NCBI GenBank assembly: GCA_022510545.1
Contig: JAFLTG010000011.1
Coordinates: forward strand, 1-49,500
Direction: 5' to 3'
Origin: Lachnospiraceae bacterium
Lineage (GTDB): Bacteria > Bacillota > Clostridia > Lachnospirales > Lachnospiraceae
Length of the DNA: 49,500 nucleotides
Below are positions 2,154 to 41,059 of this stretch, one piece after another. Position numbers and translations under genes: made by a program. Every line of letters begins with the position of its first letter. The first letter of the stretch is position 1. Under the pieces are notes generated by a model that saw nothing but the letters and a program-made list of their open reading frames with translations, ran no database searches and had not been told where the DNA came from.

Positions 2154-3758
2154 TCATTCCGTAAGCAGATTTTTTTCAATTGCACTCATTAATAAAATAA
2201 ATTTTGCATTCAAATCCACTTGTTTCATGATTCCTGTTTTTTCATTAATAAACTGATAATTTCTGCTGCCGATTCCATCCAGATAACTAATGGATACGGC
2301 ATTTCTTCCCAGAAAATAATGCAGATGATTCTCAAGTACCGTTGTATACTCATGGTTGGTAATGATATGGTCAACTACCGTCAGTCTTTCCATTTTATGA
2401 AGCAGTTCATCATTGTTATCCTGCTCTTTATTCCCCTCAGTCAAATACTTGGAACTTTTGGAGTCAAATGATACTTCTTCAACATACTTCAGCAAAATAC
2501 TGATCAATTTATCACATATATTTACATCCACTTTCTGTTTGGTAGAAAGATATGTTACACTGCCCCAGAAAACATAATCATTTTCCATATCGGGAGAAGC
2601 TTCGGCATTCAGATAATCCTGTGCGGCCTTACGATAACCATATGTTCCGGTCGCCCTATAAAGTTCCGTAGCGGCGCAGAAATATTCTTCCGGCGAAACA
2701 TCATTAAGATATTTTCCGGCATAGCGGTAAGCTCTGTCAGCTGCATTAAGACATTTTGTTGCAAAGTTTAAGTCATAACCCCGATAAAGATAACTGAACT
2801 TTGCCATCGTGGATGCAAAGCGGATTGTTGCCTCCATCGAAACAGGCTCCAGATAAAGCTGATATGCCGCCTGAGAATTATCAATTACGCTGACCGCGGA
2901 GTATACCGCACCGCTGGAGGAATCCTGCATCTTAAGAAGCCAGTCTATCTCGTATTTTATTTCATCCATTATATCGGGAATTCCATTTCCGCTTTCAGGT
3001 ATGCCAATATCATCGTTAAAAGCACTTCCGTACAGCTCATAAGCCAGTAATAGGACAGTGACCGCCTGACAGCCATCGGCTACATCTCTAAGTCCGTTTC
3101 CGTCAATATGCCATCCTCCTGATACATCAAACTCCGAAGCACCCTGCGACGCAGAATCATTCATAAGTCTTGCCGTTTTGGTATGGCAGGCATTATGTGC
3201 CGTATCTCCGGCAAACTCCGGAGCAAGTGTAAGCCCACAGCGATTATAATAGTACTGTTTCAACGCCATTTTAAAAATATCCTCATAAGGATTGTCTTCA
3301 ATAACAAACGTATAAGAGCGTCCGATTATATCGGCCTGCAGATAATAAGTTCCGGCAGTTGTATAATCAGAAAAATCGCCATGGCATATATTTTCCTGCG
3401 TTATTTCGTTATATCCTTTCTGCTCAATCTCTCCTGTATATACAATCTCCTCCGTATCCGCATTTATCAGATCATATGTATCCGGCAGTATTTCTCCACG
3501 AAATACCGCTATTTTTTTGCTGTTCGTTGCATACCCCAGCTGATTTACCATAATATCCGGGAGAATTTCAGGTATATCATAATCAAATTCCGGCGACAGT
3601 CCAAGACTTGCAATCTCATTGTCCTGCTCCTGATTGTCCTCACCTGCTTGTGATAAACCAGAAAGTCCGTTGCATCCGGATAATAGTCCCATACATAAAA
3701 CTGCAGCAATTGTAACACTAATATATTTCTTATTGATGTATCTTTTAATTATATTCAT
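2154..3758 (-). CDS. Secreted lipoprotein related to GH9 cellulases (CelD_N Ig-like + (alpha/alpha)6 domain), apparently catalytically degenerate
   Basis: Lipobox LLSGC; IMVNQLGYATNSKKIAVF (CelD_N), DVSGGWHIDGN..., GNGIPDIMDEIKYEIDWLLKMQ, HYFLGRNAVSISYLDGIG. Confidence 0.75.
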   Translation of the reverse strand: MNIIKRYINKKYISVTIAAVLCMGLLSGCNGLSGLSQAGEDNQEQDNEIASLGLSPEFDYDIPEILPDIMVNQLGYATNSKKIAVFRGEILPDTYDLINADTEEIVYTGEIEQKGYNEITQENICHGDFSDYTTAGTYYLQADIIGRSYTFVIEDNPYEDIFKMALKQYYYNRCGLTLAPEFAGDTAHNACHTKTARLMNDSASQGASEFDVSGGWHIDGNGLRDVADGCQAVTVLLLAYELYGSAFNDDIGIPESGNGIPDIMDEIKYEIDWLLKMQDSSSGAVYSAVSVIDNSQAAYQLYLEPVSMEATIRFASTMAKFSYLYRGYDLNFATKCLNAADRAYRYAGKYLNDVSPEEYFCAATELYRATGTYGYRKAAQDYLNAEASPDMENDYVFWGSVTYLSTKQKVDVNICDKLISILLKYVEEVSFDSKSSKYLTEGNKEQDNNDELLHKMERLTVVDHIITNHEYTTVLENHLHYFLGRNAVSISYLDGIGSRNYQFINEKTGIMKQVDLNAKFILLMSAIEKNLLTE

Positions 3759-10831: not shown

Positions 10832-13800
10832 TTATCCTATTAATTTTTTCAAATTATTTGCCACAATACTAAAGGTTGCTGTCTTGCTGCCTATATACTT
10901 ATTTTGATTAGGCATTCCGGTAATCACTACTGTTGCCTTTCCTTTATTCACATTGTTTACAAATGTTACCGTATAGTCTTCGCCCTCATTAAGCGTAACG
11001 GTTTGCTTACCTATCTTGTATGTAACCACTACTTTGATATTATCTCTGATAATCGGTTCGCCTGTATATTCAACCTTCTTGATTGGCTTTCCCTCCTTAT
11101 CCTGGAAAGAAATCTTTGCCTTGGATAAATCATAGCTTTCCGACGAAGCCAGGCTGCGCACTCTGTATGAAGCAGTTACATAACAGGTATCATCTGCGGC
11201 AGCATAATTACCCTTACCTACAATCTTCACCCATACGGTTGTATCTCCATTGCTAAGTTTGTTCTTACTGTCCATCACTCTGGGATTAGAATTGGTTAGA
11301 GGATTATCCAGATAGTAGGTTACAGTATAATTGGATGCCTTTATTAATACACCTTTTATGCTCACATAAGGACTGGATTTATAAACTCCGGCTTTCTTGA
11401 AAACCTTGTCGGCAATTGCCACTTCCAAACCTTCGGTTTTACCGGCTGTACTGCTCGGATTATTATTCAGCGCCGCCGTATTGATTGTAAAAGTTTTGCT
11501 GCATTTACTTCCTTTGTAACTTCCAAGGCCCGTCACGGTAAACTTTGCATCAGCTCCTACTTTCTTATTACCACTGTAGGACACTTTGTAGTCCTTACCT
11601 TCCTCCAATGTGATACTGCCGTCTTTAACTACCAGATCATCAACTTTAGTTCCGGTGCTTACAAAAGTATAACCTCTATTATTCTTATCATATTCCACGG
11701 TAAGCTCTGTCTTCTTCGGCTTGATAGCAAAAGATTTGGTAACAGTTCCTATACATTTATCGCTTATACCGGTGACAGTGAACTTCTTGGTTCCTGCGCT
11801 TGTTATATCATCCGGATAAGATATGACGTAGTCGCCATCATGCCCGTTCTTGGCTTCCTTAAGCTCTGATGCCGGCGTATTTTTAGTCGATATCGTCAGT
11901 AGACCCATTGCAGCGATGTCCTTAGGCTGGCCATCATAAGTAATTTTCTTAGCATCTTTGCCGACACTTACAATAAGTTTGACATTCTTCTGCTCGGCCT
12001 TTGATATTATTATAACATCAAGGATTCGACTGCCTTGGAAATTACCCTGTCCGGTGACGGTTATAGTTTTCTTGCTGTTATCATCTTTATCTTCCAGCTT
12101 CCACTTGTAGCTCTTGTATTCATCAGGCACTTTGAAGTCCTTGGATGTCAGCTTAATGCCGTTATATGTAAGTACCGGGGATATCTTGGAACCTTCGACT
12201 ACCGTTACATAATCGCCTTCTACTCTATCAAGCTGTTTCTTCTCAATAGTAAATAGTTTAGTGTAACTTTTGCTCAGATTACCTTTTCCGGTTACTGTAA
12301 TCTTAGCGGACTCGGAGGCTTTGACATTATTGGAATACTTAACCGTGTAGTCGATGCCTTCGGTAAGCGGTTCTCCGTTGTTGGTTACTATAATTGCAGG
12401 AGTAATTGCGTAACCGGTATATGTATAGACCTTATTAAGGTCTTTAAGCTCTATCTTTATTCCTTCTTTATTTGCAGATGTTACATGTATATTGACCGAT
12501 GCGGTCAATCCAGCATAGGTTACAATCAGTTCTTTTGTTCCTACTGTGGACATATCTATACCGGCTGCATTTGTGGTGTAGTCAGTGACTATTGAATCAG
12601 CACCTAAACTATCATAATACGTTACAATAAGATCATCAATATTTAATTTATCTCCACAGACATAAGAAGTCTTTATTTTGGTAACTGTAATATATGGTTC
12701 TGTTGTTATTGGTGGTTCTTCAACATTTTTTTCTACGGTTACACTACAAGCAGCGTCTTTATCTCCTGCTTTTGCGGTTATTACACAACTTCCTTCTGAA
12801 ACTGCCGTTACTTTGCCATCTGTTACTCTTGCAATGGAAACATTACTGCTTTCCCATGTTACAGTAGCATTTGTTGCATCAGACGGAATAACAGTGGCAT
12901 TAAGTTCAGCTGATTCTCCTACTTTCAACGCCAGTGTAGCAGGACTCAGTTCAATAGCTGTTACAGGAATAATTGTCGGTCCTCCAACATTTTCTTCTAC
13001 GGTCACATTGCATACAGCTGTTTTACCTCCCGCTGTTGCGGTTATAGTACAGTTCCCTACTGAGACTGCAGTTACTTTGCCGTTTGCAACACTTGCAATG
13101 GAAGCATCACTGCTTTCCCATGTTATAGCAGAATCCGTGGCATAGCTCGGAGTAACTGTGGCTACAAGGTCTGCGGTTGCGCCCTCTGTCAATGTTAATG
13201 CAGTATGGCTCAATACTATACTTTCTACGGGGATTACTGTAGGTTCTTCCTGTATTGCAATATCAGCCTCCAATACGGTTGTCTTTACATTATAACTTGG
13301 ATCCTGTAGCAGAGTATAAAGAACTTTTCCCTGACACAATGCACTGCCATATATGTATCCTCCGGCAATTTCAGAATCTATAGTAAACTCAGTGTTTTTA
13401 TTCGTACCATCAAAATCAATACTGCAAATAGATGTTTTATCATTAAAATACAAACGGTCATTGTATTGGAACAGACCGGAATATGCACCTAACCAATTTC
13501 CGCCTCCACCCCAAACAGGCCATGTGCCAATATTATAAACGCCAGTTACATCAGCGGATAAATCCGAAAGCACTCTTTTACCAATTTTACCAGTCTTCGA
13601 AGTAGATCCAGAATCATAATATATATAATAGCAGTCATTCCAGCCCTCTCCAGCCAGTATCATAGGTGAGTTAACGTCTGACCAAAAAACCGAATCGTAT
13701 GTTGTATCATCGGCTGTATAATTTACTACTTCCACGCCCTTTGTAACCTGCCAGTTATTGTGCCCGCTTCCTGCTTTCTCAAAAGACTCATCACTGAGAA

Positions 13801-14875
13801 ACATATATTGATGACGCACCCTTCCAATTCTATCCCAGGTCGGATCATCCCATGTGACATCCACCTGATAGAATTCACCATCAATCTTTACAAGGTTCCA
13901 TGCATGATTCATCACAGCACTGTCTACCATGTAACACTCAATTCCAACTTGGTTTAATAGATATTTATATGCAAGGGCATAACCTTGACACACAGCCGCA
14001 CGATTTACAAATGCACCGTATGCTGTATATGACATAGGTGGAATATCCTTAGCAAGATAATTTTCATAATCATATTCACAATTTGCAGCCAGATAATCAT
14101 GTAGAACAATTGCCTTCTGCAAGTCACCCATACCACTTTTAACACGGGATAAGGCTGCCCTGGTTTCTGTTTTAAAAGCATCATCATCCAAGTCTTCAAT
14201 ATAAGTAAGCCAAACTCCTTTTACAATTGAATTACTAGGTAAATACCGCAATTTCTTGTTAACATAATAAAGGTCAGGATGTTCATTTAACAAGCCGCTG
14301 ATTATGTTCACAGCACTGTCAGCGCTAATACCGTAAGCTGAAATATCAATCATCTCTGTATTACGTTTTAATGCCTCCTGGTAAATGTAGTCAACCACCG
14401 ACATTCCATTAACTTCTTCAAGCGGACTATCTGATTCAACAGAGAATGACGGATCCACGCTCTCTGAAGCTTTACCAGACGGAGCATCACCAAACTGATA
14501 TGCACCTTCAATCTCAGTCTCGACTATGGTAATTTCTGAGTCTGCCTCAGGCTCTTCTTCTACGTCTAGCTCTTCATCTTCAGCTTTAAGTTCCTCTCCT
14601 TCATCCCGCACAACTTCAAATGCAATTTCATCATTAGCATCTTCTATGTTTTCAGATACACTCTCCTTGTCATCTTCAGCATTTCCGGACGCACTACCAT
14701 CCTCATCACTCTCCAATGATGAACTCACTTCGCCAGCGTCCGTCTCAGCTGCCACATATGTTGATTCTTTACCTGCTTCTTGTGCATAAACATCGTATGC
14801 AGAAAACTGCAATGAAGAAACAATCATTGTAATTGCCAACAGACCTGCTACAATTCTTTTTCTTAAAAGCTTCAT
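10832..14875 (-). CDS. Large secreted protein: transglutaminase-like domain + two Big_2 Ig-like domains + Big_3-like domain + repetitive C-terminal modules
   Basis: Signal peptide; acidic N-terminal linker; Cys-His-Asp triad contexts [61 protein letters not shown]... repeated twice; C-terminal YTG...GxDYTVxYxNN modules. Confidence 0.85.
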
Positions 14876-24995: not shown

Positions 24996-27900
24996 CTACC
25001 AACTGAAGCCATTTAAACTATGTGAAACAATACTATATGTTGCTGTCTTGGCACCTATGCAGCCGGACTCGTCTTTTGCATAAACCAATACAGTTGCCTT
25101 GCCTTTATTCACATTATTTATGATCTTACACTCATATTTGTCACTGGAAACCTCTGTTTTACCAATCATAACCACTACTTTTCCGGGTACAACAACATCT
25201 CCTGTGTATTCTAACTTGCTAGTTTTTGTCTTGCCTGCCTCATCTTTGTAGAATACCACTTTTGCCTTGGTTAAGTCAACCTCATTAGATTTTTTAACCC
25301 AGACCTTATATGAACCTTTTATAGCTTTTTCGCCATCAGTAGTCTTATAATTTTTACTTTTAGCCTTGGCAGTAATTTTTACATAAACAGTGACATATGG
25401 TTTATCAGCCGTAATATTCGTAAATTTCAGCTTATGATCTTTATCCATCGGTGTTGTAAAACCAGCATCCTGATAGTAGGCAACATCATACTCGGAAGCC
25501 TTCACCGTTACTCCGTCCATACTTACAATAGGAGCAGATTTATAAATACCCTCTTTTCCTTTACTTACCTTATCGGCAATCAAAATATCATCTTCACTAA
25601 CGGTTTCTGTGCTCAGTTCCGCTTTTCCTATTGAGAATTTCTTCACAGACTTACCTTTATAATTTCCCTTGAAAGTTACGGTAAGTTTTGCACTGTCCGG
25701 TGTTGCGCTTGCTTTCTTGTTGCCGCTGTAGGATATCTTATAATCCTTTCCTTCCGTAAGCGGTAATGTATGTGGAATATCATCAGCATCTTTATAATTC
25801 CATGCAAGCGTCAAACCGTCATATGTTGCCCCTGTACTCTTATAAGATGGAGTACCAATCATACCTGTAATCACCATTTTACCGTCAGTATTCTCTGTCT
25901 TTTCAGCTAATACCACATCGGCATCCGCAATAGCTTTGGGTTGGATTTTACAAGATTTAACAACGTTGCATCCACTGTATTTATCCAAACCGACAATCGT
26001 AAATTTCACGGTACCTGCATCCGTTACGTTATCAGGGAAAGCTATTTCATACTGGTTAGCTTCAAGTGCCGTTCCGGTTTTCTTGTCTGACACTTTTGTA
26101 ATACATGCTCTAATCTGTTCTCTTAAATCATTACCTGTGTACTTTACACCATTTAGCGCAGTCTTATTGAGTTCAACTGTGAACTTCTCTGCAGCGGCTT
26201 TAGCAGCCTTACTATCCGCTACAACCAGTACGTCAATTTCACGCTCACCTGTGAAATTATTACCGATTCCTGTGATTATCGTTTTTTCGTTCTCATTTTC
26301 ACCATTAAACGTCGCATTGCCGTTTTTAAATTTTATATCCTTTGAAGTGAGTTTAATACTTCCATAATATAGTATAGGAAGTTTAGCCTGCTGATTTTTA
26401 ATAACTACTATTCTGCCTGCTTTTATGTTGTCTGTATCGCCAATGTCCTTCTTTTCAATAGTGAAGAGCTTCGGGTTGGATTTGCCGGCATAAATTCCTT
26501 TACCCGTTACGGTAATCGATGCTCTTTTGGAGTCAGTGGACGGTTTTACATTGTTAGAATACTTAACAGTATAATCAACGCCCTCAACCAGCACCTTATC
26601 ATTTAGACTGTTTGTAACAATGATTTCAGGCTTAATTGCGCTGCCGGTATAGGTGTAAATTTTGTCTTCGTTCTTAAACTCTATCTTCAGACCCTGGGTA
26701 CTATCAGGATCATTACCGGGATTTGTTGATTTAAGTGTCCATTTTGCATATAAAATAATATCTTCATTAACCGGAGTATTGAATTCATACTTCGACTCTT
26801 CTGCAAATTGGGGATCCTTATACCAGCCGTCAAAAGTATAACCGCTCTTGGCAGGGTCGGAAGGTTTAGAGCAGTTCTGTCCAGCCTCAACCTCCGTGGT
26901 ACCTATAATGTCACCATTGTCATCTTTGAATGTAACAGTATATTTTACAGGGTCGTTATCAGACCTCCACTTTGCATATATTGTAATATTCTCTTCTACC
27001 GGAGCATTAAAATCATATAATTGCGTACATGCTTCGTCTTTATACCAATCCACAAAAGTATAATCTTCTCTGGTGGGATTTGTGGTGGGTCTCGTACACT
27101 TATCACCAATTTTAATTTCCTGAGCTGGCACTGCTGAACCACCATTCGTATTGAATGTCACAGTAGCAAGCCACCTAGGTTTAATGGCAATATCTGTAAG
27201 AGGCAGGTAAGGAAGTTTAATCTCCTCACCGTAATTATTTTCCCAATTGCTAAATTTGTATCCTTCTCTAGAAGGAGTACCAAGTTGAGCAGATGTAATT
27301 TCGTTTCCTTCATTAACTTTTAACTCTGCAGGACTCTCCCCATCTTCTTTATATACAGTAACAGTAAACTGTCTGGATGAATCTAAAGGTACTACCATGA
27401 TTGCGTAGAGTTGATTAGTATTTTTATTAGTTATAGTATGTTGCTTTGCATCATTAAGGATCTTAGTTATAATGCCATCGGTCGGATATATATCAGTTCC
27501 GTCAATAGTAACTCTCTTATCATCTGCAAAAGTTCTTAGAAACAGTACTATTCCAGCCTTAGTAGTAGTAGTAAAGGTAATTTTTGTGGTTTCCCCCAAA
27601 TTCAACCTACCTTTTCCATCTTTTGTAGAACTATATTTTACTCCATTATAGCTTGCGGATGTACCTGCTTGAGTATCCAATTTTCCGGTAATATCAAAAT
27701 AGGGACTCTCCAGACCATCCTTATTAAATTCGTGTATGACAGTTTCCGTTCCTATAGGTTTAGCTTCATAACCACCTGGCTCTTCACCTTCTTTCAACCA
27801 CTGTCCAACAAGAGTCATGTCTTCGGTTACAACATTTTCAAAATTCCATTTGCGATATCCCTTATACCAGCCATCAAAAGCAACTTTTCCCTCCGGAACA

Positions 27901-30167
27901 GTTGTCGGATCATCAGGTTTTTCCATAGCAGTATTTGCTTCAACCTTTTTTACAAAACTATCTTCACCGTTACCAGGATTAAATGTCACAGTATAATAAA
28001 CCGTTGTAGCAACTCTTTGAATACCGCCTACCGAAACAAGCGTTGACTCGTATGTTGTTAATATTGTTTTTAATACTTCATCGACATCCGAAGATGTATC
28101 GGCATTTGGTGTATCAAATGAATACTTCAAGTCACCGCCGTTAACACGTCCTGCATGTGCCTTTACATTATTAGGGACATCGTCAACAGGATCAGGTTCA
28201 CAGCTATAAAAATCAGGCTGTATATCAAAGTTATTATAGGTATGCTCACCTTTTCTGGTTTTAACCTCAGGCGGAACCATGTCGCCTCTCTCTTTAACCT
28301 CGTATGCATCAAAATCTACAGATGCATCATCTGAAAAGTTATCAGATCGAGCATAATTTACAGTTGCCTCAAAAGTATCGTCTGTTGTTTCACTATCATT
28401 AGATAAAATTTCTTTATCATCATCAATACTATTTCCATCAAATACATTATCCGCATCTATATCTGAATTTTTATTCTCTTGAGATGTCTTATCTTCATCT
28501 ACTTCTGCATTTTCACCATCTTCAGATGCATTATCTTCATTTACTTCTGTATTTTCATCATCTTCAGATGACTTACCTTCATCTACTCCTGCGTTTTCAT
28601 TCTCCTCAGGCTCATCGTCTGTTACCGCATCCTCTCCATTAACATCCGCAAGGGCCTCATATTCACTTTCACCTAACGCAACATATGCAACGAATCCATC
28701 TGTTTCAATTTGAGATGAAACTGTTGAATCTTCAGTCTCTTTAGCTTTATAAGGATAGTAACGAGTCGCGCCTTCTATATGATTGTTATACGCTTTGATC
28801 ATACTACCGTCTTCGTATTCTTCATTAGGAGACACATCTTTAACAGATTCAAACTTTCCTTTACTGTCATACAAATCGGAACCCTGTTGTGATATCAACA
28901 TAGGATATGCGCAATTCCTAAAATAATTATTTTCGGCAAAAATAGAAGCTCCGCCTGCTGCCGCGCCAATACCATACTTTGAATTTCCATCATAATAGTT
29001 ATTATATATGTGAGTAGTAAAATAACGTATTCTGGGATGTCTGGAATCCGAATGGTCAAACCAGTTGTGGTGATAAGTAATACGGCCCACAAAATCCGGA
29101 TCATCATAACCTTCTCTTAATCCTAACAAACTGGATTTCCCTGAATCCCAGAAATGATTATAGGAGAATGTAATCAAATCAGACTTCTTACAGTCAAGCA
29201 TTCCGTCGCCCTTTTTCTGGTCACCTTCGCTTCCGGCATTACCATAGAAAAAGTCGCAATTATGTACCCAGATATGCGTATTATCCTGCTGTATACCAAT
29301 ATTATCTCCTTCCGTACTGTCACAGTTCATAAAACCAAGATTACGTATTTCAACATTAGACGCATTCAATACACGAATACCCCAGCCATTTGCTACAGCA
29401 TCCTCACCAACGCCTTCAACGGTGATACCTGCTCCAACATTTTTGCCATTTTCAATCGCAATATCACCTTTATCCATATCCTTAAAATCATTTACATTGC
29501 CGATAATACGAACATCAAGAGGTTTGGTTATCTTTAGGCTTTTGTATGCATTCAAAATATTTTGAAGACCTACATATTCTGTATTATCCTCTGATTTAAG
29601 CGTTACCCTATCCTTATTTGCATCAGTAACATAAATGACATAAGTGTCATCTTTTAAAGTTCCGTCCTTCTTATATGCGCCGGGTGTATTGATATTTACA
29701 TTTTCGGACTTGTCTTCATAATTCTGCCAGGCATAACCCGTACGGTCATGACTTGTTACATTTTCTATTGCCACAGTCTCTTCCGCAACAGTATCTCCTA
29801 CCTGCTTACTTCCATTAACTGTGTTTACCTTGACTGCAACAATCTTTATATACCATGTACCTTCTGTAAGACCAAGTATATCCGCCCGATAACAGTCCGG
29901 ATATTCTCTGATCAATTCATCATCAATCGGTTTATCAGGCCAATTTTTTTGATCCTTCGACACATACACCTGATATCCATCTGCACCCGTTACAGAATCC
30001 CACGTAACATATGCGCCCTCCTCATATCCGTTACTGGCTTTCACCGTAATCTGTCCTTCTGCCTGCACGGTCATCACTGCACCAAAATCCACAGCCGGAA
30101 CCGCAATAACCAATGCCAGCATCAACGCAAACGCTCTTTTTAACAGTTTCTTACTTTTTTTGCTCAT
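24996..30167 (-). CDS. Large secreted pectate lyase (PL1-like) with N-terminal FN3-like domain, InlB-type (Listeria-Bacteroides) repeats and repetitive C-terminal modules
   Basis: Signal peptide; ITVEGVGEDAVANGWGIRVLNASNVEIRNLGF...IWVHNCDFFYG...RITYHHNWFDHSDSRHPRIR...THIYNNYYDG; several YTVTFxxxxG...GWYKD...IxLYAKW repeats. Confidence 0.85.
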   Translation of the reverse strand: MSKKSKKLLKRAFALMLALVIAVPAVDFGAVMTVQAEGQITVKASNGYEEGAYVTWDSVTGADGYQVYVSKDQKNWPDKPIDDELIREYPDCYRADILGLTEGTWYIKIVAVKVNTVNGSKQVGDTVAEETVAIENVTSHDRTGYAWQNYEDKSENVNINTPGAYKKDGTLKDDTYVIYVTDANKDRVTLKSEDNTEYVGLQNILNAYKSLKITKPLDVRIIGNVNDFKDMDKGDIAIENGKNVGAGITVEGVGEDAVANGWGIRVLNASNVEIRNLGFMNCDSTEGDNIGIQQDNTHIWVHNCDFFYGNAGSEGDQKKGDGMLDCKKSDLITFSYNHFWDSGKSSLLGLREGYDDPDFVGRITYHHNWFDHSDSRHPRIRYFTTHIYNNYYDGNSKYGIGAAAGGASIFAENNYFRNCAYPMLISQQGSDLYDSKGKFESVKDVSPNEEYEDGSMIKAYNNHIEGATRYYPYKAKETEDSTVSSQIETDGFVAYVALGESEYEALADVNGEDAVTDDEPEENENAGVDEGKSSEDDENTEVNEDNASEDGENAEVDEDKTSQENKNSDIDADNVFDGNSIDDDKEILSNDSETTDDTFEATVNYARSDNFSDDASVDFDAYEVKERGDMVPPEVKTRKGEHTYNNFDIQPDFYSCEPDPVDDVPNNVKAHAGRVNGGDLKYSFDTPNADTSSDVDEVLKTILTTYESTLVSVGGIQRVATTVYYTVTFNPGNGEDSFVKKVEANTAMEKPDDPTTVPEGKVAFDGWYKGYRKWNFENVVTEDMTLVGQWLKEGEEPGGYEAKPIGTETVIHEFNKDGLESPYFDITGKLDTQAGTSASYNGVKYSSTKDGKGRLNLGETTKITFTTTTKAGIVLFLRTFADDKRVTIDGTDIYPTDGIITKILNDAKQHTITNKNTNQLYAIMVVPLDSSRQFTVTVYKEDGESPAELKVNEGNEITSAQLGTPSREGYKFSNWENNYGEEIKLPYLPLTDIAIKPRWLATVTFNTNGGSAVPAQEIKIGDKCTRPTTNPTREDYTFVDWYKDEACTQLYDFNAPVEENITIYAKWRSDNDPVKYTVTFKDDNGDIIGTTEVEAGQNCSKPSDPAKSGYTFDGWYKDPQFAEESKYEFNTPVNEDIILYAKWTLKSTNPGNDPDSTQGLKIEFKNEDKIYTYTGSAIKPEIIVTNSLNDKVLVEGVDYTVKYSNNVKPSTDSKRASITVTGKGIYAGKSNPKLFTIEKKDIGDTDNIKAGRIVVIKNQQAKLPILYYGSIKLTSKDIKFKNGNATFNGENENEKTIITGIGNNFTGEREIDVLVVADSKAAKAAAEKFTVELNKTALNGVKYTGNDLREQIRACITKVSDKKTGTALEANQYEIAFPDNVTDAGTVKFTIVGLDKYSGCNVVKSCKIQPKAIADADVVLAEKTENTDGKMVITGMIGTPSYKSTGATYDGLTLAWNYKDADDIPHTLPLTEGKDYKISYSGNKKASATPDSAKLTVTFKGNYKGKSVKKFSIGKAELSTETVSEDDILIADKVSKGKEGIYKSAPIVSMDGVTVKASEYDVAYYQDAGFTTPMDKDHKLKFTNITADKPYVTVYVKITAKAKSKNYKTTDGEKAIKGSYKVWVKKSNEVDLTKAKVVFYKDEAGKTKTSKLEYTGDVVVPGKVVVMIGKTEVSSDKYECKIINNVNKGKATVLVYAKDESGCIGAKTATYSIVSHSLNGFSW
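28447..28614 (-). repeat. Four 42-bp tandem repeat units encoding an acidic 14-aa repeat
   Basis: Units at 28447-28488, 28489-28530, 28531-28572, 28573-28614; e.g. TTATCTTCATCTACTTCTGCATTTTCACCATCTTCAGATGCA. Confidence 0.85.
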
Positions 30168-30915: not shown

Positions 30916-33900
30916 TTATTTAACTAAAACTTTATATGTTACATTTACATCCTTCATATTGCCTGCCTTGTCACGATAACGGACAGCAAACTTCACCTTC
31001 CATGTCTTTCCGGATTTAAGAATCTCTTTTCCGGTGTTCTGCGTTGACAAACGGATTGACTGTGTATCAGGATTATAATCATACAGAATCAAGTCATCCT
31101 TATAATTCAACAGACTCACATTACTTATTGCGACGTTTTTCTGCTTAAGCAGTGCATTAAAATCAATCTCTATTTCATTATTAAACTGTCTGTAAATCGT
31201 ATTACCGCCGGCAGACAAGGTCAATTTAGGTTTACCCTGCTTTACTTTAATGGTAAATTCTTTGGATGCAGCCTGATAGCTAGCATTGTCTTCATTTGTG
31301 ATATCAAATTCCGCCTTTACTTTATATGAAGATTTTGTAGTTACAGCCGCACCATCTTTTAGCCTTACTTCCAGCTTACCGTCTTTAAATACGCTGTCAA
31401 AAAGTGATTGATCCGTTCCTTTCAGACGGCCATCTGTAATCTCTCCTGCCAGATTATTAAGTTTCGGTGTATACACAATGGAGGTTCCGTCTCTGTCAAG
31501 TGCATCAATGGATCCTTTGGCAGTTAACTTAATACCTTTTTCCGGAGCAGTGTCTACAACTTTAACCTTCAAGGTTGCAGATACCACTTTGGTATGATCT
31601 TTATCATCATCCCAATCCCCTTCCAAATCAAACGTCATAGACACTTTGTATTGGTAAGTTCCGGTCTTGATGTTATTATGATTAAATTCCTTGTCAAACT
31701 CTGCAGTAAGCGTTCCATTCTTTGAGTTGTAATTTACAAGCAGACCATTATTATTATTTGACTTCGGTTTAACACTGATATCGTTTTTAATGACACTGCT
31801 GCATCCTTTCATACTCAAATTCGTTGTAAGCTTCTGGTTAGTCCAGACTGCATCGTTTTTATTCAAGGTAAGAGTTGAGGTACTCAGTTTAAATTTGGGT
31901 ATTGCATTGGTTACACTAATTTTGTAAGAGACTTCAACCGGGTTTTCCCAACCGTCTACATGTATCTGAATTTTAAACCGTGCTGTCTCTTTCTTGTAGC
32001 CACCTTCATCTCCACCATCCCCATCATCGTCTTCATCATCTTCACCACGTTTATTATGTTCATTAAGTTCATAATCTTCATAGTCTTCACCGCCTCCGGC
32101 ATCTCCTCCCAGTTCAAAGGACAAAATGCCTTTATCACCATCAAGATGTACGCCAAAGTCATTCTTTCCGGGTTTTGCGCTTCCTGTATTTCCACTATCT
32201 ATGCTGAGTGGTTTGCCGCTTGCATCTTTGCTGTTTAAAATCACAACTTTCTGTATGGCCAACGCTTTACCTGTTGCTTTATCCGTAAGGCTGACTTTTG
32301 ACTCGGTAACGTCTGCTCTTAAATAAAACGTATCGGAAGTCGACGACAATTTAATAGTGGGTTTAGTCTTAGACACACCTATGGTAATGTTTTTCTCGAT
32401 TGCAGTCGAATAGCCTTTCAACTTACAGCTAAGAACACCCTTTTTATCAGATATAGTTTCTCTTGTCCTTATGATTTCATACCGGGAGGAATCATCCGCC
32501 AGGGGTTTTATTTCAAAATCACAATCGCTCAACGTAAGTGTATCTATTTCATATCCGCCTGTATTGACTGTAAGCAAGCCATAGCCTTTTTCATTATCCA
32601 TTGCATAGAAAGTATTGACTTTCTGTGTTTGTTTGAAGGTAAGAGAAGGTGCTTTATCCTCTACTTTTATGGTCAGTGCTGCCTTATATGTTTCCTGATG
32701 CGATTCAGAAAGATTTTCACCTGAATTCTCATTCCAACTTACCGGAAGTTCTACGGTAACAACATACTTCTTCTTACTTAAATTCGTTACGTTTTTCGGA
32801 GAAAGCAGGTAATGGTGCAGAATGTATGCCCTATCTGCAGTTGGCTCCTGTTGACGATGTTCAATATCAAATAAACCGCTGTCATTTCCGCTAAGTACAA
32901 CACCTGCCGTTCCTAACTCAGTATCTTTTCTCGTTAATACAAGCACTTCTACTGACACATCTGTCAGTTTTTTATTGAGTATTACAGTAGAGCTGTCAAG
33001 CTTCGGTTCTCTGTCCGGAAATTCAAAACGGAACACTTTTGATGACTTCACTTCATCCATAGCCGTTACGGTAACATATACCACGCCACGCTTTTTCAAG
33101 GTATAAGGGATAGATACATCCATCCACTTACCTTCCTCGTCTTCGAATTCTGTGGCAGATACCTGTTTAACATTAAGGGTCATCATCGCAGTATCGTTGC
33201 TTTTGAATGTCAGCTTCTTGCCCGTTAAGTTTTTGTACCGCTCCTCTTCAATGAAGAAATGCAGCTTGGATTCGTCATATTTATAACTTACCTTGCTAAA
33301 ATCTACAGTCGGATGGTTGGTCACCGTAATGGAATATGTGCCTTTGAGAACCACCGCATTCGTATTGTCGGCATCCTTGATAGACACCGTAAAAGTCTTT
33401 TTCTCCGCTTTGCTGCCGCTTAATCTTCCTGTATAACGATAACTGATTTTTCCCGACGCATAACCGTCATTCACAAGAGTTCCTGTTACGGCAGGTTTGG
33501 AACTCCATTCTGTTTTTATTCTGTCAAAATAAGTTTTTAAAATATCTTCGCCATGTCTGTTTTTATAATATTCAACAATATCATCCCAACTTCCGCGGTC
33601 GGTTTCAAATCGGTACCCTAATTCAACGGTATCCCCATTTGCCACTGCCAAAGGAGCATCCGCACTATTTCCCGATTCATCAAAAGCTAGGAAAGAAATG
33701 CCTGTCAAAGTATACATATTAAGTGTAATGTTATACTCATTTTCCCTACCATCATTTACCTTATAGATTGCTTTAAATACAGCTTCTTCCTGTCCTTTAA
33801 ACTGTTTCAGGGATGTATTAGGTTCTACCCATGACCAGGTCCCTTCTTCCTTTGTTCCATCCCGATGAACCCATGAAGTCAAAGGAATACTGACATCGGA

Positions 33901-36900
33901 AAGCTTCAAGTCAAAGTTGGTAACGGCAAACACCTCCGGCCAATCCTCATCTGTAATCTTAACCGGATCAACTACCTTTACCGTACAGGTATCTTTTAAC
34001 ACATTGCTGCCTTCGGCAGGCTTAGTTGTATCTTTGATGTATGTTATGGTAATTTGCGTTTCTCCTGCTTTAAGCGCCCTGATGGTGCCGTCATATATCG
34101 GATTCTGTGAGTCTCGCCCGATATTTACCATTTCTACTATTGACGAATCCGAAACCTCCCACTTGATTTTCTCCGGATCGTCAAGTTCCCACTTTGTCTG
34201 TGCGGAATCAAATTCCACCTGAAGAGTCGTTTTTGCCGGCTCATAATTTTCACCTAACTCTATCGCTTCTTCCGGAGGCACTAATTTAATCGATTGCGCG
34301 GTCTTGGGCAGTATATGTATTTTGTATACGGAATTAACTTTACTTCCATAATATGGATAAATATATGCATATCCCGGTCCACCGGCACTAAGCACAGCTG
34401 ATGAAAGACTGACTTCTCCGGTACCTTTTAGAACCTTGTATTCAACACCGGAATTCAGCCCAAGTTCTTGCAAAGTTCTTGAAGTACCAACGTCAATCGT
34501 ATCCAAATCTTCACAGCAGAAAATAAGGTAAGGGGTTCCTGAACTCAGAGCGCCAACATTATAGATGTTCATATTTTCCTGTTCATACCAACCATAACTT
34601 CCATTCACCCACGAACTAATGCCGGCTTCTTCATCATCTGAAATCTTAAAGATATCCAGCTGCTTATTCTTTCCTCCAAAGACACTGCTTACACCCCATC
34701 CATAGACGCTCCATCCTTCAATGGAGAGGTCAACCTTATCTGCCACCGCTTGGAACCCACTATACAGCGTAAACCGCATATGGTTATCTTCGCTCATACA
34801 TGACGCATCCACATCCCCGGAAATACTTCTGGTTATTTTCTTCGGATGATAAAGTGTCCACATACAAGATCCACGACCGTAATCATGAAATCTATATTCA
34901 AAGCGGCAGCTATTACTTGCAGGGTCAAGCATATCAACAACTGTGTTGACAATATCCTTATCTATCTCTTTAGGAATATTTTTCCTCTCATACTCGTCAA
35001 CCAGCTCAAGTGTAATATTATCAAATATCATTACATCCTTATAAGTCTCAAGAATTTGCACTATCCGTTCTTTGGTCAGGCCATAGCCATATATGAACAG
35101 TGTTTTCTCTCCTGTCTCCGGATCAACGTCAATCCCGCCAAGATAGTCATCCTCTGAAGAACCTACAACGATTTTATATGCCTTGAAACAGTCTTCTCCT
35201 CCTGTCTGATACTTGGCTATGACATAGGTATCTCCTCCGACAACGGCTGTCACCATACCCGTATCATCAACGGTTGCCACATATTCCGTTAAAGATTTCC
35301 ATACAGCGCCATCCGGTGCATCAGGCAGCTGCAGCGTTTCTCCGGGCATTAAGGATATCGGCTCTACTCCTTCATTATCCGCATCACCTTCGCAGTACAT
35401 CAGCAGATATTCCGAGTCTTCGGCTATATACGCTGCATTTATCGATACCCCATAATCTCCGTAGTAAGCAGTGCGGTACCATCCGACAGTCCCGATAATT
35501 TCACCGTTTTTAAGCAGGAAAATTGTAAGGTATCCCCCATTGCCTCCAAACAGCTTATCAGAAATCTTACCGGTATCATCCTTCCATGCATTCCGCTCCA
35601 AATATATTTCCGACCACTGTGCAGGGAGTCCTTCAAGTGAATGATTCACTTTTAATTTGATTCCCTGATAATCCGCATTAGAAGCTTTTTGTGCTGTAAC
35701 GGCATCGGTAAAGTCAAAGTTGACACCCTCAGTTGTCTGAGGATTATAGAGTATTAATGATGTATAATCAGAATCTTCACTATTACTGAAACGATATTCC
35801 ACATTACCGGTATATGTAAAACCGGCAGCTTCTGCATTTTCTACCATAATATCCACTGCGGCATTGATAACTTCTCTGTCAATTTCATGTTTGTCATTAG
35901 GCGTAAAGTCAAAAACTATTTTATTAAACTTTTGACCTTTTTCCTGATATTCTTTTAATATCTCAATAACCTGCTGTGCCTCAAGTTCTCCGGAATCTGT
36001 GTCGCGCCAGTCAAAAACAAGCTTATTAATCTGAATTCCATTTACAGTCTCTTTCTCAATTACTCCTTTATAATAATTCGAGGGTTCGTCGATTTTTATG
36101 CGGTATACCGTGTGGATGTAATTATATGTTCCTGAATCATTCGCGCTGATAGCGTAAGCAAAACAAACATAAGCTTCTCCCGTATCGGCTTTTGTAGTCA
36201 CATATCCGTCTCTATCTGCATCTTCTATCAGCGTACTCCCAAAGGTAATACATTGACGTGCCTCTTCATCATTATAAATATCCTCAGGAAAAACCATCAA
36301 TTGTACCTTACTATTCGGCGGAATCACCTTGGGTCTTACACCTGCGTTATCCGTATCTCCTTCACAACATATAATCAGGTGCTTCACACCCGGTACCAAG
36401 CTGTTAACATTGTTGATGGTTATCCCCTTTTCATCACAATATGCTGAACAGCCTTCTTTAATGGCATCTATGTGATTTCTCTGCATTGTAAATACTTTGA
36501 GGTTCAGATTCCTGCCTCCAAAAATCACATCGGAAATCACCCCGTTTGAAAGCCAATTACTATTTTCTACATACAGTCCAATGTTCGTGGCATGGAGCTT
36601 ACTCATATCTGTATTGCCGCTCAGCTGTATCGAGATACCCTGCTTTTTATAGTCATTACTACTATTGCCACGATTCACTGTGGCCGCTCCGTACACACCG
36701 AAGTCTCCTTCATCGAATTCGGAAGGCTTAACAAGAGTCCACTTATAAGTAGTCGCACCATCATAAAAAGAGTATTCAATTCCGCTCTGATTATCTGAAG
36801 GATTCAAAAGCTCTATTGCTTTATTAACAACATCGCTTGAAATTACAGCATCTGCTTCATATTTCAATCTGAGTGAAATCAAGTTGAAATATTGGTCATT

Positions 36901-38214
36901 ATCTTTATATTTCTGCATAATTGCAACAATATTATCCGGTGTCAGAGCATCTGCTCCACCTTCGTCACAACTTATGACCAATACTCTTTTACCATCCCGA
37001 TCTTCTACTCTTCCTTCATATTCTACGGAAGGGGCGCCGACTATTATTTTGTAAACCGTATGAATATAATTGCTTCTGTTAGTGTTTAGGTAAGCAAAAT
37101 AAGCATAACATTCTCCTGTCCCGGCGTGTGTAGTCACATTTCCGGACTTCTCTGCATCTATCAGAGTACTGTTAAAATCATAAACATAGCGGTCATCGTC
37201 AACAACACTATCAGGAAAACTCATCAATTTAATAGTGCTATTCGGCTGAATCACTATAGGTTCTACGTCTTCGTTATCCGTATCTCCTTCACAGCATAGC
37301 ATCAGATTCTTACTATTTGGCGTCAGGCTGCCGACATTGTCAATGGTTATCCCCTTATCTCCACAATATGCCGAACATTCTTCTTTAATGGTATCTATGC
37401 GATTAGACTGCAATGTAAATACTTTGAGGTTCAGATTCCTGCCGCCAAAAATTATATCGGGAATCATCCCGTTTGTAAGCAACTCGCTTTTTTCTACATA
37501 TAAGCTGATATTCGCTACAGGGAGCTTCCTCATATCTATACCATTCAGCTGTATCGAGATGCCCTGCTTAGTATATTGATTATTAGTGTTGTTACGTTTC
37601 ACATCGAGTCCGTATACTGATAATTCTTCCTCACCAAATTCAGAAGGCTGAAAAAGCGTCCACTTATAAGTTTCTGCATCATTAGAAAAACAATACTCGA
37701 TTCTTCTCTGCTCATATGCAGGCTCCAAAAGCCCTATTGCCTTATTGACAACAGCGCCTGAAATTACCGCACCTTCCTTGTATTCCAAGTTGAGTGAGAT
37801 CACTTGGAAATGTCTGCCTTGACTTTCATATTCCTGCATTTTTGCAACAATATTTTCAGGAGTCAGAGCATCTGCTCCCCCTAAATCTTCACTGCCGATG
37901 ACCAGTACTCTTTCTCCATCCAGTTCTTCTTCGCTTCCAAGTACTGTGGACATTTCTATGACATCAGTTTCGTCGATATTTTCCTGTTCATCATAAGTAT
38001 CATACGAACTCTCCTGCCCGTCTTCACTTTCACCAAGACTCTCCTGCTCTACATTATCCTCAATAACAAATTCTGTATCAGCATCAATATCACTTGTCTC
38101 AGCAGCCGATACTGTTATTGCACCTCCTAAAGATTGAGGCAGCATGGTTACCAGCATAGCCACAATCAATACTCCGGAAAGTGCCTGTTTCATTTTACGT
38201 AACACCTTTTTCAT
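30916..38214 (-). CDS. Giant secreted repeat protein; four tandem ~300-aa modules then multiple Ig/cadherin-like domains
   Basis: Signal peptide (LSGVLIVAMLVTMLPQ...VSAAE); start reassigned to MKKVLRKMKQ after GGGAGG; internal repeats visible by eye (LTPENIVxxMQEY, FGGRNLNLKVF, CCEGDTDN, YIHTVYKI). Confidence 0.85.
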   Translation of the reverse strand: MKKVLRKMKQALSGVLIVAMLVTMLPQSLGGAITVSAAETSDIDADTEFVIEDNVEQESLGESEDGQESSYDTYDEQENIDETDVIEMSTVLGSEEELDGERVLVIGSEDLGGADALTPENIVAKMQEYESQGRHFQVISLNLEYKEGAVISGAVVNKAIGLLEPAYEQRRIEYCFSNDAETYKWTLFQPSEFGEEELSVYGLDVKRNNTNNQYTKQGISIQLNGIDMRKLPVANISLYVEKSELLTNGMIPDIIFGGRNLNLKVFTLQSNRIDTIKEECSAYCGDKGITIDNVGSLTPNSKNLMLCCEGDTDNEDVEPIVIQPNSTIKLMSFPDSVVDDDRYVYDFNSTLIDAEKSGNVTTHAGTGECYAYFAYLNTNRSNYIHTVYKIIVGAPSVEYEGRVEDRDGKRVLVISCDEGGADALTPDNIVAIMQKYKDNDQYFNLISLRLKYEADAVISSDVVNKAIELLNPSDNQSGIEYSFYDGATTYKWTLVKPSEFDEGDFGVYGAATVNRGNSSNDYKKQGISIQLSGNTDMSKLHATNIGLYVENSNWLSNGVISDVIFGGRNLNLKVFTMQRNHIDAIKEGCSAYCDEKGITINNVNSLVPGVKHLIICCEGDTDNAGVRPKVIPPNSKVQLMVFPEDIYNDEEARQCITFGSTLIEDADRDGYVTTKADTGEAYVCFAYAISANDSGTYNYIHTVYRIKIDEPSNYYKGVIEKETVNGIQINKLVFDWRDTDSGELEAQQVIEILKEYQEKGQKFNKIVFDFTPNDKHEIDREVINAAVDIMVENAEAAGFTYTGNVEYRFSNSEDSDYTSLILYNPQTTEGVNFDFTDAVTAQKASNADYQGIKLKVNHSLEGLPAQWSEIYLERNAWKDDTGKISDKLFGGNGGYLTIFLLKNGEIIGTVGWYRTAYYGDYGVSINAAYIAEDSEYLLMYCEGDADNEGVEPISLMPGETLQLPDAPDGAVWKSLTEYVATVDDTGMVTAVVGGDTYVIAKYQTGGEDCFKAYKIVVGSSEDDYLGGIDVDPETGEKTLFIYGYGLTKERIVQILETYKDVMIFDNITLELVDEYERKNIPKEIDKDIVNTVVDMLDPASNSCRFEYRFHDYGRGSCMWTLYHPKKITRSISGDVDASCMSEDNHMRFTLYSGFQAVADKVDLSIEGWSVYGWGVSSVFGGKNKQLDIFKISDDEEAGISSWVNGSYGWYEQENMNIYNVGALSSGTPYLIFCCEDLDTIDVGTSRTLQELGLNSGVEYKVLKGTGEVSLSSAVLSAGGPGYAYIYPYYGSKVNSVYKIHILPKTAQSIKLVPPEEAIELGENYEPAKTTLQVEFDSAQTKWELDDPEKIKWEVSDSSIVEMVNIGRDSQNPIYDGTIRALKAGETQITITYIKDTTKPAEGSNVLKDTCTVKVVDPVKITDEDWPEVFAVTNFDLKLSDVSIPLTSWVHRDGTKEEGTWSWVEPNTSLKQFKGQEEAVFKAIYKVNDGRENEYNITLNMYTLTGISFLAFDESGNSADAPLAVANGDTVELGYRFETDRGSWDDIVEYYKNRHGEDILKTYFDRIKTEWSSKPAVTGTLVNDGYASGKISYRYTGRLSGSKAEKKTFTVSIKDADNTNAVVLKGTYSITVTNHPTVDFSKVSYKYDESKLHFFIEEERYKNLTGKKLTFKSNDTAMMTLNVKQVSATEFEDEEGKWMDVSIPYTLKKRGVVYVTVTAMDEVKSSKVFRFEFPDREPKLDSSTVILNKKLTDVSVEVLVLTRKDTELGTAGVVLSGNDSGLFDIEHRQQEPTADRAYILHHYLLSPKNVTNLSKKKYVVTVELPVSWNENSGENLSESHQETYKAALTIKVEDKAPSLTFKQTQKVNTFYAMDNEKGYGLLTVNTGGYEIDTLTLSDCDFEIKPLADDSSRYEIIRTRETISDKKGVLSCKLKGYSTAIEKNITIGVSKTKPTIKLSSTSDTFYLRADVTESKVSLTDKATGKALAIQKVVILNSKDASGKPLSIDSGNTGSAKPGKNDFGVHLDGDKGILSFELGGDAGGGEDYEDYELNEHNKRGEDDEDDDGDGGDEGGYKKETARFKIQIHVDGWENPVEVSYKISVTNAIPKFKLSTSTLTLNKNDAVWTNQKLTTNLSMKGCSSVIKNDISVKPKSNNNNGLLVNYNSKNGTLTAEFDKEFNHNNIKTGTYQYKVSMTFDLEGDWDDDKDHTKVVSATLKVKVVDTAPEKGIKLTAKGSIDALDRDGTSIVYTPKLNNLAGEITDGRLKGTDQSLFDSVFKDGKLEVRLKDGAAVTTKSSYKVKAEFDITNEDNASYQAASKEFTIKVKQGKPKLTLSAGGNTIYRQFNNEIEIDFNALLKQKNVAISNVSLLNYKDDLILYDYNPDTQSIRLSTQNTGKEILKSGKTWKVKFAVRYRDKAGNMKDVNVTYKVLVK
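34309..37920 (-). repeat. Four divergent tandem copies of a ~300-aa coding module
   Basis: Approximate copies (minus strand): 37920-37033, 37011-36079, 36066-35161, 35139-34309; copies 1 and 2 are the most similar. Confidence 0.8.
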
Positions 38215-38498
38215 TATAGTCTTTCCTCCCACTTAATTTTAGATTCGCAAAATCTCCCACTATGTAATTCCATCTAGAATGATAACTTATATAATATTAA
38301 TATAATAATATGTTCCCATTATATTTTATACAATTTATTATGTATTGTCAAAGAATCAGCAAAGTATCTCTTTTCTAATTTATAAAACTGGTGTAAAATG
38401 GTATAATAGATTAATTCTCTTACGAATGTTGTTACTGTCATACAAACGAGGGAATTTATATGCAGTATCTATAAAACGGAAGGACATAGGGTAAATAT

Positions 38499-39953
38499 AT
38501 GGATAGACAGAACTTAACTCTGCTCACGGATTTATATGAATTAACAATGATGCAGGGTTATTTCAAAAACAAAGATCAAAATGAAACCGTAATCTTTGAT
38601 GCCTTTTACCGCAACAACCCCTGCGATGGCGGCTTTGCCATATCCGCAGGCTTGGAGCAGTTGATACAATATATAAAAGAACTGCACTTTGAGGATGAAG
38701 ACATTAAATATCTTGCGAGTCTTGGTATTTTTGAGCAGGATTTTCTTGATTACCTCCATGAATTCAAATTTACCGGAGATATCTATGCGATTCCTGAAGG
38801 TACCGTTGTCTTTCCAAGAGAACCTATTGTAAAAGTTATTGCACCTATTATGCAGGCGCAGCTTATTGAAACTGCCATCCTGAATATCATAAATCATCAA
38901 AGCCTGATTGCCACCAAAGCGGCAAGAGTATGCTATGCCGCACATGGCGATGGTATTATGGAATTTGGCTTAAGGCGTGCTCAGGGACCTGATGCCGGAA
39001 TCTATGGAGCCAGGGCTGCGGTAATCGGCGGCTGTATCGGAACCTCCAATGTTTTGTGCGGTCAGCTATTCGATATTCCGGTAAAAGGCACACATGCACA
39101 CAGCTGGATTATGAGTTTTCCGGATGAATATACCGCATTTAAGACCTATGCCAACATGTATCCATCTGCCTGCATTTTACTGGTTGATACTTATGATACA
39201 TTAAAATCCGGTGTACCTAATGCAATTAAGGTATTCACTGAAATGAGGGAGGCCGGAATCCCCCTCACTTTCTATGGAATCCGTCTGGACAGCGGCGACC
39301 TTGCATACCTTTCCAAAAAGGCGCGTAAGATGCTCGATGAAGCCGGATTTACAGATGCTGTAATATCTGCATCCAATGATTTGGACGAGTTCCTTATCCA
39401 GAGCTTAAAAGATCAAGGTGCTGAAATAACCTCCTGGGGTGTGGGAACACATCTTATTACTTCTAAAGACTGCCCTTCATTCGGAGGTGTTTATAAACTG
39501 GCTGCCATTATGGGAAAAGACGGAAAATTCATCCCTAAGATTAAACTGTCCGAGAATACAGAAAAAATTACAAATCCGGGAAACAAGACTATTTATCGTA
39601 TCTATGAAAAAGAAACCGGCAAGATTAAAGCCGACCTTATCTGTCTGGTTGACGAGGAGTTTGACGAATCTAAACAGCTTATGCTCTTTGACCCTGCCGA
39701 GCCTTGGAAAAAGACTATGCTTAAAGGTGGCAGTTACACACTTCGCGAACTTATGGTTCCGGTTTTTAAAAACGGTGAATGCTGTTACACCTCTCCCAAG
39801 GTAATGGATATACGTGATTACTGTCAGGAAGAATTAAATACACTCTGGGATGAAACAAGACGACTTGTAAACCCGCATAAGGTTTATGTGGATCTGTCCA
39901 GTAAATTATATGACATTAAGATATCTCTGTTAGATCAGATGAGCATAACCTAA
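38499..39953 (+). CDS. pncB: Nicotinate phosphoribosyltransferase
   Basis: LLTDLYELTMMQGYF, FGLRRAQGPDAGIYGARAAVIGGCIGTSN, GTHAHSWIMSFPDE, YGIRLDSGDLAYLS. Confidence 0.95.
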   Translation: MDRQNLTLLTDLYELTMMQGYFKNKDQNETVIFDAFYRNNPCDGGFAISAGLEQLIQYIKELHFEDEDIKYLASLGIFEQDFLDYLHEFKFTGDIYAIPEGTVVFPREPIVKVIAPIMQAQLIETAILNIINHQSLIATKAARVCYAAHGDGIMEFGLRRAQGPDAGIYGARAAVIGGCIGTSNVLCGQLFDIPVKGTHAHSWIMSFPDEYTAFKTYANMYPSACILLVDTYDTLKSGVPNAIKVFTEMREAGIPLTFYGIRLDSGDLAYLSKKARKMLDEAGFTDAVISASNDLDEFLIQSLKDQGAEITSWGVGTHLITSKDCPSFGGVYKLAAIMGKDGKFIPKIKLSENTEKITNPGNKTIYRIYEKETGKIKADLICLVDEEFDESKQLMLFDPAEPWKKTMLKGGSYTLRELMVPVFKNGECCYTSPKVMDIRDYCQEELNTLWDETRRLVNPHKVYVDLSSKLYDIKISLLDQMSIT

Positions 39954-41059
39954 CTGTTCTTTTCTTTTTGCTGTAAATAAAACATAGTTTTCTGAGTTTC
40001 AATTTCATTCCTCAGTTCTTCTTCAGTTGGCAGATACAATTTATATTTTGAAGCAAATAATTGTTCATTGCCATGCAAAACAGAATACCTCGCTATATCT
40101 TCGTCTGTTTCTGTACAAAGCACAATCCCCAACGTCGGGTTGTCATCAGTACTTTTCTTCAACTCGTCATACATACGTATATACATATCCATCTGACCGA
40201 CATCCTGATGTGTGATCTTATCTGTTTTCAAGTCTACCAGAACAAAGCACTTCAAAATGTAATTATAAAATACAAGATCGATAAAGTAGTCCTCTTTCTC
40301 GGTCTTTATGTGTTGTTGACGCGCAACAAAGGCATATCCTTTTCCCAATTCCATAAGGAATTTTTGAATATTGGATATAATGCTGGTTTCCAAGTCGGTT
40401 TCTGTAAAGTCTGTATTTGATGATAAACCAAAAAATTCAGCAATAACAGGATTTTTTATGAATTCCAGCTTATCATTTTGGAAATCAGCAGTCTTTTCCT
40501 GCATTTCTTTCTCTACTAATTCTTTATTCTGAGATTGTAATATCCGATAGTAATATTGCGTATTAATATTACGCTGCAATGTACGGACGCTCCATGTCTG
40601 TTGGTATGCTTCTTTTTCGTACCAACTACGAGCTTTTTCATCTTTTACTTGTATTAGGCATCTATAGTGCGACCATGAAAGCACCCCCTGAGATTTTCCA
40701 CACAGTGTGTGGAAAATCTCAGGAAAGCATTTATAAAAAGAATAGAAACTGTACAGATTTGTTTTGGTAAAACCTTTTCCATATATTTTAGTTAATTCAT
40801 TTGACAGTTTTTTGATTACATTTAGACCATATTCTGCACGATTTTCGCCTTTTAACTCTTCCTCAGCAATTCGATATCCTATCAGCCAGTTTCTTTGAGA
40901 CAAAATCGTGTCCACAGCATTATATGCCTGTCGCCTGGAAGTTTCTATGATGTTTTGTATATCGGTTAGTATATTTTCTGATTTTTGATATGTTTCCATA
41001 ATATCAGTATTTTCAATTTTTATTGGTTCATTCATGATGAAGTCTCTCCTAAAATACAT
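39950..41059 (-). CDS. PDDEXK nuclease domain-containing protein (DUF1016/YhcG)
   Basis: RQAYNAVDTILSQRNWLIGYRIAEEE, LSWSHYRCLIQVKDEKARSWYEKEAYQQTWSVRTLQRNI, FIDLVFYNYILKCFVLVDLKTDKITHQDVGQMDMYIRMYDE. Confidence 0.92.
   Translation of the reverse strand: MYFRRDFIMNEPIKIENTDIMETYQKSENILTDIQNIIETSRRQAYNAVDTILSQRNWLIGYRIAEEELKGENRAEYGLNVIKKLSNELTKIYGKGFTKTNLYSFYSFYKCFPEIFHTLCGKSQGVLSWSHYRCLIQVKDEKARSWYEKEAYQQTWSVRTLQRNINTQYYYRILQSQNKELVEKEMQEKTADFQNDKLEFIKNPVIAEFFGLSSNTDFTETDLETSIISNIQKFLMELGKGYAFVARQQHIKTEKEDYFIDLVFYNYILKCFVLVDLKTDKITHQDVGQMDMYIRMYDELKKSTDDNPTLGIVLCTETDEDIARYSVLHGNEQLFASKYKLYLPTEEELRNEIETQKTMFYLQQKEKNS
40687..40723. repeat. 37-bp near-perfect palindrome inside the DUF1016 gene
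   Basis: cctgagattttccacaca-g-tgtgtggaaaatctcagg: 18-bp arms around one central base. Confidence 0.95.

Follow-up and report, generated by a model that had tools for sequence, protein, structure and literature searches.

Organization of the locus

The window analysed here, a 49,500-nucleotide stretch from a Lachnospiraceae bacterium, carries a gene for a giant secreted protein on its minus strand (30916-38214). An open reading frame of 2438 amino acids is confirmed at 30916-38232 (-) if the GTG at 38232 is taken as the start; judged from the sequence, the in-frame ATG at 38214 is the likelier start, being preceded at a distance of about 9 nt by a GGGAGG ribosome-binding site, and would yield a protein of 2432 amino acids. 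Residue numbers used here count from the GTG, that is, from the 2438-aa version. A predicted signal peptide (aa 7-44; 38101-38214), with SPase I cleavage predicted after VSAA, is the sole strongly hydrophobic stretch in the protein and is followed by an acidic, low-complexity linker evident from the sequence (aa 45-98; 37939-38100). Linkers of a similar kind occur in the homologs of four other genomes (G026, G076, G025, and G469), and homologs of the window protein are between 1617 and 2854 aa long. Beyond the linker lie four tandem homologous modules at aa ~99-404, 405-720, 721-1029, and 1030-1310, and the remainder of the protein is a C-terminal stalk region (aa 1311-2438; 30919-34302), which is defined by a profile designated A3 and in which no anchor was recognised.

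Several other minus-strand genes in the window are of note. The gene at 24996-30167 specifies a second giant exoprotein, a 1723-aa secreted protein with a pectate lyase domain (PF00544), a CBM77 domain, and several List_Bact_rpt/Flg_new repeats, which points to pectin use. A 1347-aa secreted protein encoded at 10832-14875 combines a transglutaminase core with Big_2 and Big_3 domains, and its C-terminus gives no match to the stalk profile; the idea that the stalk also occurs in these two neighbouring giants, the pectate lyase and the transglutaminase protein, was not supported. A cellulase-type protein of glycoside hydrolase family 9 with a CelD_N domain is encoded at 2154-3758, and a lone YhcG/DUF1016 PD-(D/E)XK nuclease gene (39950-41059) is flanked by an NAPRTase gene on one side and by a cluster of peptidase M20 and oligopeptide transporter genes on the other.

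The repeated core and its spacers

The initial annotation described four tandem copies of a module of about 300 aa at 34309-37920, and comparisons between the copies bear this out. The BLASTP alignments range from copies 1 and 2 (59% identity, E 1e-116), through copies 1 and 3 (28%, E 9e-26), copies 2 and 4 (28%, E 3e-18), and copies 1 and 4 (E 9e-11), to the weakest pair, copies 3 and 4 (22%, E 1.6e-8), and core-domain scores between copies lie 12-112 SD above those of shuffled sequence. At the DNA level copies 1 and 2 are only 75% identical and the other pairs 58-60%, so that the repeats are not an assembly duplication. Copies 1 and 2 are indeed the youngest pair, as had been proposed, their node in a tree of cores receiving support of 99/99, which indicates a recent duplication; the accompanying claim that copy 4 is the most diverged did not hold, copies 3 and 4 being about equally so. 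A group of three cores specific to G215, a genome of another genus, was supported at 97/95. The rest of the core tree is largely without resolution, and copy-by-copy positional orthology between species could for the most part not be assigned from it.

The motifs by which the copies had been recognised are present: (V/I)LVI..LTPENIVAxMQxY....F..ISLxLxY, VVNKAIxLLxP...IEYxFxxxxxxYKWTLxxPxEF, FGGRNLNLKVF (FGGNGGYLTIF and FGGKNKQLDIF in copies 3 and 4, respectively), and YIHTVYKIxVGxPSxxYxG. The (C)CEGDTDNxGVEP signature was also found, but copy 4 lacks its GDTDN part. A reading of this signature as a calcium loop was rejected: its residues are not spaced as in DxDxDG, and it occurs only in window copies 1-3 and one copy in G004.

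While the repeat is real, each module divides into a core of ~210 aa and a following Big_2-type Ig-like spacer of ~75-95 aa. Pfam detects Big_2 (PF02368) at aa 977-1013, in the tail of copy 3, at 24.0 bits against a gathering cutoff of 22.8, and the rest of the module has no Pfam or NCBIfam match. Spacers 1, 2, and 4 are assigned as Big_2-type by homology to copy 3 or from the model of copy 4 rather than by a Pfam score of their own. The stretch ending in FGGRNLNLKVF, initially described as an Ig-like strand set, lies within the core, and no Ig match could be detected for it. On this division, and with all cores delimited by BLASTP between copies and the core profile, core 1 (aa 99-312; 37297-37938) is followed by spacer 1 (aa 313-404; 37021-37296), identified through the Big_2-matching part of copy 3; core 2 (aa 405-622; 36367-37020) by spacer 2 (aa 623-720; 36073-36366), identified through homology between copies; core 3 (aa 721-946; 35395-36072) by Big_2 domain 3 (aa 947-1029; 35146-35394); and core 4 (aa 1030-1239; 34516-35145) by spacer 4 (aa 1240-1310; 34303-34515), which the copy 4 model shows as a second domain, its strands running from E212 to E279. 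In G215 (L124) and G495 (L125) the cores repeat back to back without a spacer; these spacer-less arrays, in two other genera, identify the ~210-aa core as the repeating unit. A profile of the whole module (A4) was rejected as proof of wide spread, since nearly all of its matches (158 of 397 family genomes) are made only through the Big_2 tail at positions ~190-285.

A profile built from the window alone (A1) found at most four congeners and no locus in the genome_contigs set; iterated profile searching widened the set to 19 cores from seven genes, which define the core profile with E-values of 1e-42 to 1e-65. None of the 19 scores above a curated cutoff in Pfam or NCBIfam, the best values (E 0.015 and 0.007, respectively, from one member each) being at chance level, and no relative of the core was found among PDB sequences. 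AlphaFold2 models were obtained for the core of copy 2 with the 19-core alignment (pLDDT 85.8, pTM 0.84) and for the entire copy 4 module (pLDDT 84.2, pTM 0.85). Both are predicted to adopt a beta-beta-alpha-beta-alpha-beta-beta arrangement followed by a mainly beta half, with elements in identical order, and in copy 4 the core is followed by a separate, small, beta-rich domain consistent with a Big_2 spacer. Since the modelled copies are only ~27% identical yet share a predicted topology, the objection that the copies might have unrelated folds fails. Foldseek comparison of both models with 350,542 PDB chains gave no match at E ≤ 0.001 and a query TM-score of at most 0.22 among the matches listed, and comparison with the viral predicted structures of BFVD gave no match; a 'new fold' in this sense, as judged from the models, means only one absent from the PDB. 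The suggestion of a new domain family is thus upheld: outside the Big_2 tail none of the copies has a match to a named domain in Pfam or NCBIfam, and the family is present in other genomes and genera. The domain family is new and of narrow distribution, and the protein plan to which it belongs is a known one.

Distribution of the core and its association with a stalk

The core was found in eight genomes representing four Lachnospiraceae genera. Five are among the 78 genomes of the genus to which the window belongs (G000, G004, G025, G026, and G076), and three further genera are represented by G215, G495, and, in more diverged form, G469. Genes carry between one and six copies: one in G076 and G025, two in G026, at least two in the truncated gene of G004, three in G495, four in the window, six in G215, and at least three in G469. 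The G469 gene (L138, 1-8567 of G469:C46) encodes a diverged relative of 2854 aa in which at least three cores can be detected, together with the same stalk and an acidic linker rich in E and T. No further core was found in a phylum-wide sample of 379 genomes. Weak core matches were inspected and set aside as a nucleotidyltransferase-like protein unrelated to the family (G787) and unrelated, repetitive Gly/Thr-rich proteins (G720 and G776), and matches of the L008/L014 type, to open reading frames of 350 and 310 aa, were discarded at 18-19 bits. Carriage as mobile-element cargo was also considered and rejected; phage and plasmid records contain no match to the core, and no operon partner is conserved. 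The homologs lack a conserved gene neighbourhood, G025 and G026 sharing only an adjacent purine-synthesis gene.

In all eight core-bearing genomes, the core and one ~1,100-aa C-terminal region share a single open reading frame. The region is conserved as a unit of ~1,130 aa whose subdomains have little detectable mutual similarity (best pair, 45% probability); judged by its residues it is beta-rich and presumably Ig-like. The A3 profile of this stalk matches 37 of the 78 congeners and few other genera, among them all three head-bearing genomes from outside the genus. In congeners the same stalk bears other heads, namely CAP (the own-genome L078, and L061 and L075), LRR, and Big_2. The own-genome example (G000:C158:6737-11284, minus strand) is a giant in which CAP and LRR_5 domains are joined to part of the same C-terminal stalk. 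Because the strong stalk matches outside the genus all carry the core, the combination of core and stalk may have come first and the exchange of heads may have followed inside the genus, as far as the genome sample indicates. Searches of the window protein with Pfam and NCBIfam and by hydrophobicity found no C-terminal sortase motif (LPxTG), SLH domain, or transmembrane helix, and the C-terminal ends of the other inspected stalk-bearing proteins have no anchor motif.

Putative function and comparison with known systems

Fibrillar-adhesin-like (FA-like) proteins of Firmicutes usually have their head at the N-terminus and their stalk at the C-terminus, and Big_2 is a known stalk domain (PMC8286594). 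New adhesive domains have come to light in N-terminal regions left unannotated on Big_2 and other stalks, and proteins of this kind count as adhesin candidates (PMC9210967). By analogy, the window protein is probably, if only modestly so, FA-like, with heads most likely to bind an extracellular target. The signal peptide would export the protein, and the long C-terminal stalk of putative beta-sandwich-type domains would carry, at its distal N-terminal end, one to six copies per protein of the ~210-aa head domain, in the window interleaved with Big_2 spacers. Candidate targets are glycans of plants or mucin, host proteins, and neighbouring cells, and tandem duplication of heads may tune reach and avidity. 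A surface location for the protein is inferred, and a binding role for the cores is suggested by the head-on-stalk layout, the interchangeability of heads, and the lack of conserved catalytic-type residues. Against the adhesin reading, no adhesive domain of Pfam or NCBIfam was found in the window protein, and the core, by sequence and predicted fold, appears to resemble no known adhesive domain.

Across the 19 cores, conservation falls on hydrophobic and aromatic positions and on Gly and Pro, and the sole near-invariant polar residue is an Asn in helix 2. Such almost purely structural conservation makes an enzyme unlikely and favours a binding or structural domain. It is therefore very improbable that the core is, for example, a polysaccharide-active enzyme, as might be suggested by the secreted pectate lyase with CBM77 encoded two genes downstream and by the GH9 cellulase elsewhere in the window: no constellation of acidic, His, Ser, or Cys residues is conserved, Foldseek found no significant similarity to any PDB enzyme, and the gene neighbourhood is not conserved among homologs. 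The same structural conservation would suit cores that serve as mere stalk, lengthening the fibre either without any binding of their own or with binding confined to the outermost copy, and their tandem arrangement, variable number (1-6), and alternation with Big_2 spacers in the window would fit such a role as well. We nevertheless regard this as unlikely, since the predicted fold, a large mixed alpha/beta plus beta domain, is unlike typical small stalk beta-sandwiches, cores are found only at the N-terminal end, a single core (as in G076 and G025) would add little length, and core-less relatives have other functional domains, such as CAP, at that position. The protein may also be released, as the signal peptide and the lack of an anchor in it and its inspected stalk-bearing relatives would permit, and act in the gut lumen or matrix as a soluble multivalent binder or inhibitor, whether by aggregating polymers, by neutralising a molecule of the host or of a competitor, or by building up extracellular matrix. 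We rate this lower still; the missing anchor motif is weak evidence for release because about half (nearly half) of FA-like proteins lack a recognised anchor (PMC8286594, PMC9210967), and binding to the wall may be a property of the conserved C-terminal region.

A separate alternative concerns novelty and is compatible with any functional reading: the core may belong to a known family from which it has diverged so far as to be missed by profiles and by Foldseek against the PDB, perhaps one present only in predicted-structure databases. Many taxon-restricted domains prove to be remote relatives, copy 4 has feeble, non-significant local matches to STAS-like proteins (Foldseek E about 0.5-0.8), and the fold comparison was confined to the PDB and BFVD. 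Set against this are the confident models lacking any match at E ≤ 0.001 in the PDB chains or BFVD and the failure of all 19 members to match Pfam or NCBIfam, and we consider a hidden known family possible but doubtful. A comparably tentative status attaches to the boldest version of the adhesin reading, in which the core would be both a new fold and a new adhesive (ligand-binding) family limited to a few Lachnospiraceae genera, carried on an equally undescribed, head-exchangeable stalk of ~1,100 aa whose attachment to the cell would follow an uncharacterised mechanism.

Uncatalogued domains are common in gut Firmicutes. The gain here is a confidently modelled domain family without a catalogued relative, and the combination of such a model, unmatched in the PDB, with an exchangeable stalk lifts the case above the routine. 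A stalk with exchanged heads (new core, CAP, LRR) in gut Lachnospiraceae offers a handle on what these bacteria grip in the herbivore gut and on how giant Firmicutes proteins lacking an anchor are retained by the cell; the bearing is on annotation and microbiome ecology rather than on new mechanism.

Among known systems, the nearest in plan are the FA-like proteins (PMC8286594, PMC9210967), with which the window protein shares great length, secretion, an N-terminal head, a C-terminal stalk presumably of beta domains, Big_2, the Firmicutes orientation, and the lack of a recognised anchor. It differs from them in that its head is unlike the listed adhesive domains, its stalk lies mostly outside Pfam, and its adhesion is predicted only. 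The CAP-domain (PF00188) giants, such as those of G000:C158 (L078) and G060:C54 (L061), are alike in signal peptide, acidic linker, and C-terminal stalk family, but their head is a CAP domain, to which LRR_5 and Big_2 may be added, in place of the new core. The bacterial Ig-like Big_2 domain (PF02368) is the counterpart of the ~75-95 aa that close each module in the window, whereas the ~210-aa core ahead of the spacer is unlike it.
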